A stretch of 64,000 nucleotides of DNA from Imtechella halotolerans (GTDB lineage Bacteria; Bacteroidota; Bacteroidia; Flavobacteriales; Flavobacteriaceae), in the NCBI RefSeq assembly GCF_028743515.2, contig NZ_CP117969.2, positions 2,451,501 to 2,515,500 of the forward strand, in the 5' to 3' direction. Under the pieces are notes generated by a model. That model worked only from the letters and a program-made list of their open reading frames with translations, ran no database searches and was not told where the DNA came from. This document shows positions 42,272-50,075 of this stretch, piece after piece. Made by a program: the position numbers and the translations under genes. Every line of letters begins with the position of its first letter. Position 1 is the stretch's first letter.

Positions 42272-42646
42272 ATGAATTATAGATTCCCCAAGAAGGAAAG
42301 GCTTTGTAGTCAAAAAAATATTGAGCAACTTTTTGCTGAAGGGAAATCAGTTTCAAAATATCCACTTAAGCTTATTTATCTAGCTTCATCGTTGCCTGAA
42401 AATGTTCCCATTCAAGTAGGAGTTACAGTTCCAAAACGTACATTTAAAAAGGCCGTCATCCGCAATCGAATAAAAAGACTTTTAAGAGAGAGCTATCGAT
42501 TACATAAACCCTTGTATTTTAACACCCTCGAAACTCCATATGCTTTTATGATTTTGTATCTTGGTAAAGAAATTCCTTCTTTTGATGAAATTCATTCCAG
42601 AATGGCTCAACTTTTGGAGGCTTTTAAGAATAAGGAAGGATTATAA
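42272..42646 (+). CDS. rnpA: Ribonuclease P protein component
   Basis: A 124-residue basic protein that helps the RNase P RNA bind and cut pre-tRNAs. It starts MNYRFPKKERLCSQKNIEQL and contains the conserved RNR motif segment KKAVIRNRIKRLLRESYR. It lacks the rpmH-rnpA-yidC context seen in many phyla. Here a DUF4349 lipoprotein gene follows after 10 bp, and an S41 peptidase gene after that. Confidence 0.96.
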   Translation: MNYRFPKKERLCSQKNIEQLFAEGKSVSKYPLKLIYLASSLPENVPIQVGVTVPKRTFKKAVIRNRIKRLLRESYRLHKPLYFNTLETPYAFMILYLGKEIPSFDEIHSRMAQLLEAFKNKEGL

Positions 42647-46532: not shown

Positions 46533-46967
46533 TTAACATTTGATAGGTATCTTATTAACACGATTTTCATGACGTCCGCCTTCAAAAGGTGTAGAAATAA
46601 AAATTCGTACCATTTCAATAGCCTGAGGAATTGAAGTATATCGAGCAGGTATACTTATTACATTAGCATTATTATGTTGGCGAGCCAATTCTGCAATTTC
46701 CTTTATCCAACATAGTGCAGCACGGACTTTTTGATGTTTATTAGCAGTTATTGCTACACCATTTCCACTTCCACAAATGATAATTCCTAAATCTACGTTT
46801 CCATTTTCTACATCAGTTGCTACTGGATGAACAAAATCAGGATAATCGACACTATCTAAGGTATCAGTTCCATAATTAACTATAGTGTGACCTTGTTCCT
46901 GTAAGAAATTAACAATGGCAAATTTATAATCAGTTCCTGCGTGGTCATTTCCGATGGCAATTTTCAT
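46533..46967 (-). CDS. rpiB: Ribose-5-phosphate isomerase B
   Basis: A 144-residue enzyme of the pentose phosphate pathway (RpiB/LacA/LacB family) that interconverts ribose-5-P and ribulose-5-P. It begins MKIAIGNDHAGTDYK, and the phosphate/active-site loop IICGSGNGVAITANKHQKVR follows at about 68-87. Length is normal. A TAnnTTTG element 47 bp upstream would start the rpiB-CDF operon, reading away from the AT-rich gap on its right. Confidence 0.97.
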   Translation of the reverse strand: MKIAIGNDHAGTDYKFAIVNFLQEQGHTIVNYGTDTLDSVDYPDFVHPVATDVENGNVDLGIIICGSGNGVAITANKHQKVRAALCWIKEIAELARQHNNANVISIPARYTSIPQAIEMVRIFISTPFEGGRHENRVNKIPIKC

Positions 46968-46979
46968 GAGTTATAATGT

Positions 46980-47589
46980 ATAAGAGTTGATATTATGACT
47001 ATTATAGTCACTACAAAAGTACAAAATCACACTTATGAACAACAAAAAATACGGTTGTTAATTCTGTTTTATAACTAATTAATTTTCAGTTAATTATATA
47101 TTAACAATTAATGTTAATACAAATTCAGAAATTAATTAGCTATACTATTTTATAATTGAAAAAAAATTACAATACAGAATATAATTAATACTAGTCAAGT
47201 AGAAGTTATTGATAGTTATTAGCATTTTATTTTTCAGTTATCAACAGATATTAACGTTGTAATTTATTAAAATTTACAGCTACTATCTAGATATTGACAA
47301 CTGTTAATAACCTTCTAAAATTTCTTCATTTATAGTAATTTAAAGATTAAAAGGATTGTTAATTAATCAATATAAGTTTGTATAAATTGATGGTAAAAAC
47401 AGTTATAACATTTTTTATTGCCACTATTAACAAGCTATAATAACAATCAAAATATTTTTAAAAAATTTAATTTTCTTTTTAATTATACTATTAGTGGTTG
47501 ATAACTATCAAAAAAATAAAATTGTTTGAGGTATTTATCTAAGTAAGATGAGATGTGATAAAGAACTATAGAATATGAAATTTTATAGT
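46980..47589. other. AT-rich intergenic region, candidate chromosomal replication origin (oriC)
   Basis: About 610 bp with very little G+C and no gene, between the outward-reading rpiB (left) and rnr (right) genes. It contains 9-mers near the DnaA box TTATCCACA: TTATCAACA at 47238-47246, TTATTAACA on the minus strand at 47302-47310, and TTATCAACC on the minus strand at 47496-47504. Weaker ones (CTATTAACA at 47424, GTATTAACA minus strand at 47112) and many GTTAAT/ATTAAC words also occur. Base composition of plus-strand genes changes from C-rich on the left to G-rich on the right in sampled lines. Known origins show all three traits; the assignment is inference. Confidence 0.5.
47014..47021 (-). 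promoter_or_regulatory. -7 promoter element (TACTTTTG) for the rpiB-CDF operon
   Basis: TAnnTTTG on the minus strand, 47 bp before the rpiB start. A TTTG on the same strand at 47043-47046, 21 bp upstream, fits the -33 element. Confidence 0.6.
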
Positions 47590-47745
47590 TTAATAAGCTT
47601 GAGTGAATGCTGTAGAACTTTTAGGAACTATTGTCTTTACTGCTTCTTTTTCATCCAATGATTTTTGAATACTTTTTGCAAAAAAGAAGATTCCCATCAC
47701 AAAGATGATAATGAATAACGTTATGATTTTGTATATACGTTTCAT
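47590..47745 (-). CDS. Small single-pass membrane protein, hypothetical
   Basis: A 51-codon frame on the minus strand inside the AT-rich gap. The product starts MKRIYKIITLFIIIFVMGIF, a positively charged end and one transmembrane helix, then FFAKSIQKSLDEKEAVKTIV and a short Ser/Thr/Ala tail. Normal start, charged tail and positive-inside layout support a real gene, but it is short and lies in AT-rich DNA where chance frames occur. Function unknown. Confidence 0.5.
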   Translation of the reverse strand: MKRIYKIITLFIIIFVMGIFFFAKSIQKSLDEKEAVKTIVPKSSTAFTQAY

Positions 47746-47864
47746 ACTTCTATAGACGGCGATTGTTTAGAAATGTTACATTAATTTTAATAAAATTTTA
47801 ACTTTTAACAGAGTACTGTATCTTATAATTATTATCATTACTTTTAAGCATTAAGAATGATTAT

Positions 47865-50075
47865 ATGACTAGAAAGAAAAAAAGCGCTGATAAGCAGCGT
47901 AAAAACGAACTTACCAAAGGAATTTTTTCAGTACTTGAGGCTCAACCTAATGCTACTTTTAACTATAAACAAATAGCTGCTAAACTTAATATTATTGATG
48001 CCAAAAGTCGTAATGAACTTATAAAAAGGTTAGTACAGTTAAAAGAAAAGAAGCGAATACTTGAGACTGAAAGAGGAAAATATCAATCCATTCCACTTAA
48101 AAATTATTTTACTGGTATTGTAGAAATTACAAGTAATGGTAATGCCTATGTACTATGTGAAGATCTTGATGAAGATGTTTTTGTTACTTCCAATTTATTA
48201 AACAAGGCATTGCATGGAGATGAAGTGGAAGTTTATGTTTTTCCACGTAGACGTTCTGGAAAAAAAGTAGAAGGTCATATAACTAAAGTTATTCAACGGA
48301 AGAAAACTAGTTTTGTTGGAATTGTACAAATGCATCCAAATTTTGCTTTTGTTTTACCTTCTGATCATCGTATGTACACTGATATATTTGTTCCAAAGGA
48401 TAGATTGGATGGTGCAAGTGATGGTGATAAGGTGATTGTTTCTATTAATGATTGGCCTGAAAAGGCTGATTCTCCTTATGGTACAATTACTCAAGTATTG
48501 GGTAAACCAGGTGATCACGATACCGAAATTCATGCTATTTTAGCTGAGTATGGATTACCATATAGTTTTCCATTAGAAGTTGAACATTATGCGAATCAAT
48601 TAGATACATCTATTACCAAAGATGAGATTAGTAGGAGAAGAGATATGCGTGATGTGTTAACTTTTACTATTGATCCCCGTGATGCTAAGGATTTTGATGA
48701 TGCTCTATCATTTCGCAGGTTAGAGAATGGTAATTTTGAAATTGGAATTCATATTGCCGATGTTTCGCATTATGTTACTCCTGGCACTTTACTTGACGAT
48801 GAAGCCTATAATAGAGCTACATCCGTTTATTTAGTTGATCGAGTAGTACCTATGTTACCAGAAATACTTTCTAATAATGCTTGCTCCTTGAGACCAAATG
48901 AAGAAAAGTATACATTTTCAGCAGTTTTTGAGTTAAATGGTAGTGCTGAACTAGTTAATAAATGGTTTGGAAAAACTGTTACTTATTCAGATCAGCGATT
49001 TGCTTATGAAGAAGCCCAAGCCATAATTGAACATTATACACTAAACAAACAAAGTGACTATAGTTCTTTTTTAATGCCTGAGAATATTGCTATTACAGAT
49101 ACTTCTTATACGGTTTCTAAAGAAATTGTGGAGGCTGTTATGACTATGGATGTTTTAGCTAAAAAATTGCGTTCTAAACGCATGCAATCAGGTGCTATTT
49201 CTTTTGATAAGGTAGAAGTTAAATTTCGTTTAGATGAAAACAGTAACCCTATAGGTGTATATTTTAAGGAAGCTAAGGACGCCAATAAGCTTATAGAGGA
49301 ATTCATGTTATTGGCTAACCGAAAAGTTGCAGAATTTATAGCTAAACAAGAAAAGACTTTTGTTTATAGAGTACACGATGAGCCAGATGAAGAAAAATTA
49401 ATGCAATTACAGGGAATAATTGGCCGTTTTGGTTATTCTTTAAATATGCGATCAAAGCAAACTATTACAAGTTCTCTTAATAGTCTATTAACTGAAGTTC
49501 AAGGTAAAAAGGAACAGAATTTAGTGGATACTCTAGCTATTCGCAGTATGAGTAAAGCTATTTATAGTACTGATAATATTGGTCATTATGGATTAGCATT
49601 TGATTATTATACTCATTTTACATCTCCTATACGTCGTTATCCAGATGTTATGGTTCACCGCTTACTTCAACAGTATTTAGACGGTGGTGCATCTGCTAAA
49701 GTAGAAGAATATGAGCAAAAATGTCGTCATTCTTCTGATATGGAAAATTTAGCAGCTAATGCAGAACGAGATTCTATAAAGTATATGCAGATTAAATTTA
49801 TGGAAGATCATAAAGATCAAATTTTTATTGGTGTAATTTCAGGTGTTACAGAGTGGGGAATTTATGTAGAAATTATAGAAAATAAATGTGAAGGTATGGT
49901 ACGTGTTAGAGATATTCAAGATGATTATTATGTTTTTGACGAAAAACAATATGCTATTGTAGGGGAAGTTACAAAAAATATGTACCAACTTGGAGACGAG
50001 GTTTTGGTGAAGGTTAAAAATACAGATCTTATTAAAAGACATTTAGATTTTCATTTACTAGGAAGACGTCAATAG
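47865..50075 (+). CDS. rnr: Ribonuclease R
   Basis: A 736-residue RNase II-family 3'-5' exoribonuclease that degrades structured RNA. Domains: N-terminal winged-helix (about 8-75; NATFNYKQIAAKLNIIDAKS), two cold-shock OB folds (about 80-240), the RNB catalytic domain (about 255-590) with the metal-binding cluster TIDPRDAKDFDDALSF and HFTSPIRRYPDVMVHRLLQQ, and a C-terminal S1 domain (about 645-730; GVISGVTEWGIYVEIIENKC). The codon third positions are T- and G-rich, unlike plus-strand genes to the left of 47 kb. Confidence 0.97.
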   Translation: MTRKKKSADKQRKNELTKGIFSVLEAQPNATFNYKQIAAKLNIIDAKSRNELIKRLVQLKEKKRILETERGKYQSIPLKNYFTGIVEITSNGNAYVLCEDLDEDVFVTSNLLNKALHGDEVEVYVFPRRRSGKKVEGHITKVIQRKKTSFVGIVQMHPNFAFVLPSDHRMYTDIFVPKDRLDGASDGDKVIVSINDWPEKADSPYGTITQVLGKPGDHDTEIHAILAEYGLPYSFPLEVEHYANQLDTSITKDEISRRRDMRDVLTFTIDPRDAKDFDDALSFRRLENGNFEIGIHIADVSHYVTPGTLLDDEAYNRATSVYLVDRVVPMLPEILSNNACSLRPNEEKYTFSAVFELNGSAELVNKWFGKTVTYSDQRFAYEEAQAIIEHYTLNKQSDYSSFLMPENIAITDTSYTVSKEIVEAVMTMDVLAKKLRSKRMQSGAISFDKVEVKFRLDENSNPIGVYFKEAKDANKLIEEFMLLANRKVAEFIAKQEKTFVYRVHDEPDEEKLMQLQGIIGRFGYSLNMRSKQTITSSLNSLLTEVQGKKEQNLVDTLAIRSMSKAIYSTDNIGHYGLAFDYYTHFTSPIRRYPDVMVHRLLQQYLDGGASAKVEEYEQKCRHSSDMENLAANAERDSIKYMQIKFMEDHKDQIFIGVISGVTEWGIYVEIIENKCEGMVRVRDIQDDYYVFDEKQYAIVGEVTKNMYQLGDEVLVKVKNTDLIKRHLDFHLLGRRQ

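Follow-up and report, generated by a model that had tools for sequence, protein, structure and literature searches.

The question raised by this locus is whether the AT-rich gap between rpiB and rnr is the place at which chromosome replication starts. The window (the whole stretch of DNA that was analysed, 64 000 nucleotides) corresponds to positions 2451501-2515500 of a one-contig Flavobacteriaceae chromosome of 3,113,111 bp. The rpiB-rnr gap very probably serves this flavobacterium as oriC, its chromosomal replication origin, and is a candidate defined by sequence; at that level the reading is based on a skew switch and on a conserved core in which two inward-facing box-like words, at a constant distance from each other, flank highly unstable DNA. 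An origin had been proposed here in an initial annotation, and that interpretation is well supported, though the reasons given for it were partly insufficient.

The description of about 610 bp of very AT-rich DNA with genes pointing away on both sides was confirmed: positions 46980-47589 contain 80.7% A+T by base count, rpiB lies on the minus strand and rnr on the plus strand. The features of the neighbourhood are as follows.

46968-47864, no strand: rpiB-rnr gap, proposed oriC region (AT 0.79 for the whole gap; skew change point; divergent gap in relatives)
46533-46967, minus strand: rpiB, left neighbour (PF02502, E 7.7e-56)
47865-50075, plus strand: rnr, right neighbour (PF00773, E 2.2e-114)
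42272-42646, plus strand: rnpA (PF00825, E 3e-20), 4.3 kb left of the gap
47596-47745, minus strand: 49-aa ORF, between the AT-rich part and rnr

An ORF similar to the 49-aa ORF was found in L064 and L101; the match to DUF4492 is weak (20.5 bits, below the cut-off of 27). A search of the rpiB-rnr gap for RNA genes gave zero Rfam matches at gathering score, and two tRNAs are the only RNA matches in the window. Further to the right, a giant open frame (~11.3 kb, minus strand) runs from 53163 to beyond 64000, past the right end of the window. The order rpiB (-), gap, rnr (+) was found in 48 of the 80 rnr relatives that were fetched, among which Neptunitalea chrysea is the closest named one (RNase R 79% identical). 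Five others (L118, L119, L129, L136 and L138; Soonwooa, Kaistella, Chryseobacterium) carry rpiB (+) 5′ of rnr (+), and rpiB was not found within the retrieved locus DNA of the remaining 27.

Neither dnaA nor the rpmH-rnpA-yidC set had been seen beside the gap. This stands for dnaA and was corrected for the set, rnpA being only 4.3 kb away; rnpA also lies left of rnr in 23 of the 80 relatives. The sole dnaA match of the genome was located at 571732, 1.19 Mb from the gap. A dnaA gene beside oriC is common and not obligatory, so this distance does not exclude an origin. The same separation was found throughout the one-contig genomes (28 of 28, own genome included; some lengths rounded), with dnaA at 0.20-0.48 of the genome from the core described below and adjacent to it in none.

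GC skew was sampled in 54 stretches of 20 kb across the chromosome. All stretches from 1.02 to 2.44 Mb were negative, and those from 2.52 Mb through base 1 to 0.98 Mb were without exception positive; the turn from minus to plus occurs only inside this window, and the reverse turn lies near 0.98 Mb, almost opposite. A skew change in the direction expected of an origin had been deduced from G and C counts of single sequence lines, four of which were quoted (41701, 44221, 51001 and 48421). These counts were exact on recount, and the deduction agrees with the sole minus-to-plus turn in the window, with the break at rpiB or the gap. A skew minimum far from this place had been named as one observation that would speak against an origin; the sampled skew turns inside the window, and the change point falls at rpiB or the gap.

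For a strand-corrected change point, third codon positions were analysed continuously from 2.38 to 2.60 Mb (training ORFs: 359 leading, 306 lagging). The best break was obtained between cdf and rpiB, and the rpiB-rnr gap scored 6.5 log units behind it because rpiB alone looks lagging. A break placed at 40.3 kb or further left, or beyond 50.8 kb on the right, cost at least 16.9 log units; scores inside 45.1-47.9 kb differ by at most ~11 log units. An origin on the far side of rpiB, as the best break would have it, was set aside: rpiB is on the leading side, yet its third-position skew is lagging-like, and since the same is seen in 16 of 24 relatives the cdf/rpiB break was read as a gene effect; moreover, cdf and rpiB abut in the window. 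The terminus break was placed at ~981 kb and is poorly resolved (973-1010 kb). Arithmetic from the gap and the terminus break gives arms of ~1.60 and ~1.52 Mb.

Skew was also sampled in the 12 best-scoring one-contig relatives, with three stretches on each side of rnr; G033 was dropped from this sample because its gap lies too near a contig end. Mean skew was higher right of rnr than left of it in 12 of 12 relatives, and the raw sign was as expected in 34 of 36 right stretches and 23 of 36 left stretches. With strand-matched third positions, a step at rnr was found in 12 of 12 relatives for plus genes and in 11 of 12 for minus genes (exception G062). In the local 10-kb flanks of the named relatives, the median sign was as expected in three of four gene classes, and the expected sign was not seen for right-side minus genes near the gap; these flanks were judged too weak as a skew test, and the wider sampling was used instead.

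DnaA-box-like words had been reported at 47238 and, on the complement, at 47302 and 47496. All three positions are correct (TTATCAACA, plus strand; TTATTAACA and TTATCAACC, minus strand), and a further box, CTATTAACA at 47424, was absent from that list. The accompanying argument from the density of such 9-mers failed. With TTATCMACA/TTATTAACA the gap reaches only 2 per 600 bp, which is equalled at other places; TTATNNACA gave 19 matches in the 64 kb window against 24.3 expected; and TTATNAACA occurs 171+156 times genome-wide against 167+170 for the reversed control, that is, without enrichment. Since the narrow words are not rarer elsewhere, the density argument is weak and gives way to the one from the conserved core and the constant distance between its boxes. 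When a wider word set was used, one picked after seeing the gap, 47001-47600 ranked first with five words among 12,243 sampled 600-bp windows, which overlapped at a step of 100; the runner-up elsewhere had four. Box density was thus rejected as proof of an origin, the narrow words reaching 2 per 600 bp here and elsewhere and the wider set being post hoc. The second-best cluster (4 per 600 bp; L026 18400-19000, ~1458401-1459000 of the own genome) precedes an HU-like gene (named by eye) and reaches its start.

Across species the result was clear. In an unbiased k-mer count over 49 gaps, including that of the window (last 1500 bp; 20 dinucleotide shuffles), TTATCAACA was held by 25 of 49 gaps (1.6 expected), TTATTAACA by 34 (4.7 expected) and CTATTAACA by 27 (1.2 expected). 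The convincing excess of box words is therefore the one across species; within the own genome, a cluster above background was found only with the generous post hoc set and was not found with the narrow words.

The conserved part of the gap reads, in the window, TTATTGCCA, CTATTAACA, two bases, CTATAATAACAATCAA, A/T tracts and the reverse complement of TTATCAACC. Its elements and the outer words are as follows.

47415-47504, plus strand: conserved core of the proposed origin, ~90 bp (alignment A1 of 30 sequences; profile R1)
47415-47423, plus strand: degenerate box TTATTGCCA, abutting the left box and called a box only tentatively (TTAT invariant or nearly so in A1)
47424-47432, plus strand: left inner DnaA-box-like word CTATTAACA (A1; excess across gaps as given above)
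47433-47495, no strand: proposed unwinding element between the inner boxes (47435-47494 easiest melting)
47435-47450, plus strand: conserved element CTATAATAACAATCAA, adenine every third base (triplet conservation, 49 loci)
47496-47504, minus strand: right inner DnaA-box-like word TTATCAACC, start 72 bp from the start of the left inner box here
47033-47041, plus strand: candidate outer box-like word TTATGAACA (word match in the window)
47238-47246, plus strand: outer box TTATCAACA, paired with the outer box at 47302
47302-47310, minus strand: outer box TTATTAACA, paired with the outer box at 47238

From start to start, the inner boxes are separated by 71-72 bp in 40 of 49 loci, and in 48 of 49 the figure is 69-73 bp. 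When a wider search range was used, the 71-72 bp spacing was found in 39 of 49 loci; when the DNA 3′ of the left element was shuffled 200 times, no pair of neighbouring spacings accounted for more than 9 of 49. Among loci outside model training, the inner spacing was 69-73 bp in 18 of 19. Both inner boxes turn their ACA end toward the unstable DNA. No 60-bp stretch of the window melts more easily than 47435-47494, which falls in the easiest 0.006% among the positions sampled; for lengths of 100 and 300 bp, too, the least stable stretch of the window is inside the rpiB-rnr gap. In the CTATAATAACAATCAA region, the middle base is A at a frequency of 0.89-0.95 in five successive triplets (49 loci), with a run of at least 5 in 42 of 49. 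The own genome contains one exact match to TATTAACANNCTATAATAAC, at this place, none with one or two mismatches and 12 with three. The boxes at 47238 (+) and 47302-47310 (-), which form the outer pair, are likewise 71-72 bp apart, measured between their 5′ ends, in L103, L113, L097, L101 and G114. A palindromic core was considered and is mostly unsupported: beyond the opposing box, p <= 0.05 was reached in only 6 of 49 loci (window, p 0.134).

The spread of the core was surveyed with R1, a sequence-only profile trained on rpiB-rnr gaps including this one, in 149 family genomes (at least 95% completeness, one per genus). As R1 was trained on this gap, the survey demonstrates conservation of the site, and the functional claim rests on skew and anatomy. 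Matches were obtained in 140 of 149 genomes, with a single match in 119 of the 140; the own genome has one, at the rpiB-rnr gap. The best match is on the strand of rnr and no more than 10 kb 5′ of it in 133 of 140 genomes (no more than 1 kb in 111). Against the 80 named loci, R1 matched 48 (29 training and 19 non-training sequences). Conservation of the rpiB-rnr spacing and boxes in relatives had been suggested as a check, and the outcome was strongly positive. No R1 match was found in nine of the 149 genomes (G017, G035, G051, G061, G072, G098, G103, G140 and G144); in G017, rpiB and rnr are 37 kb apart.

Several genomes depart from the common arrangement, among them the seven of the 140 whose best match is not at that distance from rnr (G012, G014, G019, G048, G086, G092 and G105). 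The one-contig genome G019 (length rounded) has rnr at base 555 and the core at about 3.53 Mb; its numbering seems to begin inside the rpiB-rnr gap, hence the apparent distance. The second R1 match of G048 adjoins rnr, and the contig with the core is not the one with rnr in G012 and G014. The core match of G105 (C1:588456-588555) is ~0.9 Mb from rnr and on a contig other than that of rpiB, mnmG being ~15 kb from rnr; this displaced core may be a moved origin, a second copy or a draft artefact. Several kilobases separate core and rnr in L082, G097, G112, G116, G046 and G036; in G097, G116 and G036 the core is still ~0.4 kb from rpiB despite the distant rnr.

Two other readings of the locus were weighed. 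According to the first, replication starts nearby but elsewhere, for example beside mnmG, which in the own genome is located at 2530683 (79.2 kb in window coordinates), 32 kb right of the gap. The oriC of Mariniflexile and Algorimicrobium is labelled "mnmG" through Ori-Finder-based calls in PMC11278836 and PMC12843772, the former also placing dnaA in disagreement with the skew plot. The gene keeps close company with the core: of the 28 one-contig genomes, 27 have it 7-57 kb away, 26 of them on the side of rnr, and one is without an mnmG match. It is also near rpiB in eight of nine non-family genomes, which were partly chosen for core matches. Against this, a break at 70.3-73.8 kb, still short of mnmG, is already at least 46 log units worse, the best 25 breaks listed all lie to the left, and the core and the unstable DNA sit in the gap. 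By the own-genome change point mnmG is near the start and is not the start, and an origin elsewhere in the neighbourhood is accordingly most improbable.

The second reading makes the gap a site of DnaA titration or of regulation by bound DnaA, or a promoter pair, with the origin close by; it is equally hard to sustain and very unlikely. Box words do also precede genes, such as the HU-like gene at ~1458500, and the change point separates positions in 45.1-47.9 kb by at most the ~11 log units given above. However, the single R1 match of the own genome and the window's least stable stretches of 60, 100 and 300 bp coincide in this gap, and a titration site has no need of an unwinding element. In addition, the core stays by rpiB, on the opposite strand, in genomes with rnr elsewhere (G086 and G092, ~0.4 kb from rpiB). 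The rpiB-rnr gap is retained as the very probable oriC.

Beyond the family, in a draw of 246 class genomes, 14 genomes matched R1 at E <= 0.001, nine from the family and five from others; 212 genomes were without a match. In G357 (L229) and G379 (L226), from other Bacteroidia families, the match has the placement seen in the window, ~0.4 kb 5′ of rpiB and on the other strand; in G176 (L225) it lies 5′ of a nadA-like gene (named by eye) in divergent orientation, and the context of the other two was uninformative. In L237 and L239, an AT-rich gap containing box words separates rpiB from a divergent nadA-like gene (by eye). Of 25 genomes chosen from the class and the order, 24 had their rpiB loci inspected, and weaker core-like matches were found just downstream of rpiB in G150 and G166. 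In the nine non-family genomes, mnmG is within ~10 kb of rpiB in seven (G150, G166, G167, G309, G357, G379 and G381), 37 kb from it in G320 and on another contig in G176. These observations suggest an old neighbourhood of rpiB, mnmG and origin, which is taken as a lead only, because the non-family matches are weak.

Compared with DnaA-dependent oriC regions in general, the gap is alike in its skew switch, its box cluster in an AT-rich intergenic gap, the unstable DNA beside the boxes and the opposite terminus. It is unlike them in lying far from dnaA, in having TTATNAACA and CTATTAACA instead of the common box form TTATCCACA, and in its pair of inner boxes, which point at one another from the two sides of a single unwinding stretch and keep a fixed distance. 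The oriC of E. coli is of the gidA/mnmG-mioC type, away from dnaA, and its R1 box turns the ACA end toward the unwinding DNA. The position away from dnaA, the nearby mnmG and the box orientation are shared by the present locus, whereas here mnmG is 7-57 kb off, the neighbours are rpiB and rnr, and a box stands on both sides of the unwinding stretch. Both gidA and mioC are mentioned for E. coli oriC in PMC10225481.

A basal unwinding system (BUS) consists of a DnaA-box plus DnaA-trios, with the published reading 5′-CTA-3′ (PMC8287927, PMC6669920 and PMC8235120). Tandem box-like words beside period-3 sequence and AT-rich DNA are likewise present here, but when the left-box strand is read, the best conserved triplets are NAN, where the published rule gives NTN. 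Runs of at least 3 NAN triplets on that strand were found in 49 of 49 loci, with a mean run of 5.57 against 3.66 in shuffles. Trios of published polarity (at least 3 within 16 bp of the box) were found in 24 of 49 loci on the left and 36 of 49 on the right, much of which composition explains; the mean runs were 3.59 against 2.78 (left) and 4.55 against 3.56 (right) in single-base shuffles. As the NAN strand is opposite to the published rule, the core was not filed under BUS. Canonical DnaA-trios were not established.

The Ori-Finder calls for Mariniflexile and Algorimicrobium resemble the present result in being skew-based and in pointing to the same chromosomal neighbourhood; they differ in that the label is mnmG instead of the rpiB-rnr gap or the core. 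Neither the gap as an origin nor the core is named in the open-licence PMC matches listed; the DoriC tables may list the gap. A replication origin is an element of known kind, and the family-wide core, the fixed box spacing and the link to rpiB were not found in print in the literature searched.

In the proposed mechanism, DnaA would be supplied in trans from the dnaA gene 1.19 Mb away and would bind the box words, the outer ones serving to gather or regulate it. DnaA would melt the 62-63 bp between the two inner boxes, the replicative helicase would be loaded at the melted stretch, and two forks would leave, one through rnr and one through rpiB. A more far-reaching model is possible and is put forward tentatively: the Flavobacteriaceae core would be two-sided, a 62-63 bp unwinding stretch with inward DnaA boxes at the fixed 71-72 bp spacing at both ends, opened by DnaA from both ends with one helicase for each strand. 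The core would be tied to rpiB and mnmG in a neighbourhood that is ancestral to much of the Bacteroidia and has outlived the separation from dnaA and the changes at rnr.

Base 1 lies within ~130 bp of dnaA in 10 of the 28 one-contig family genomes; in these ten the likely origin is 0.20-0.48 of the chromosome away from base 1, and the published labels say mnmG. The core profile could be used for finding origins in drafts, for correcting coordinates, for estimating growth rate from coverage and for building replicating vectors. The paired, strictly spaced inward boxes would make the loading of the second helicase testable on a short DNA fragment.
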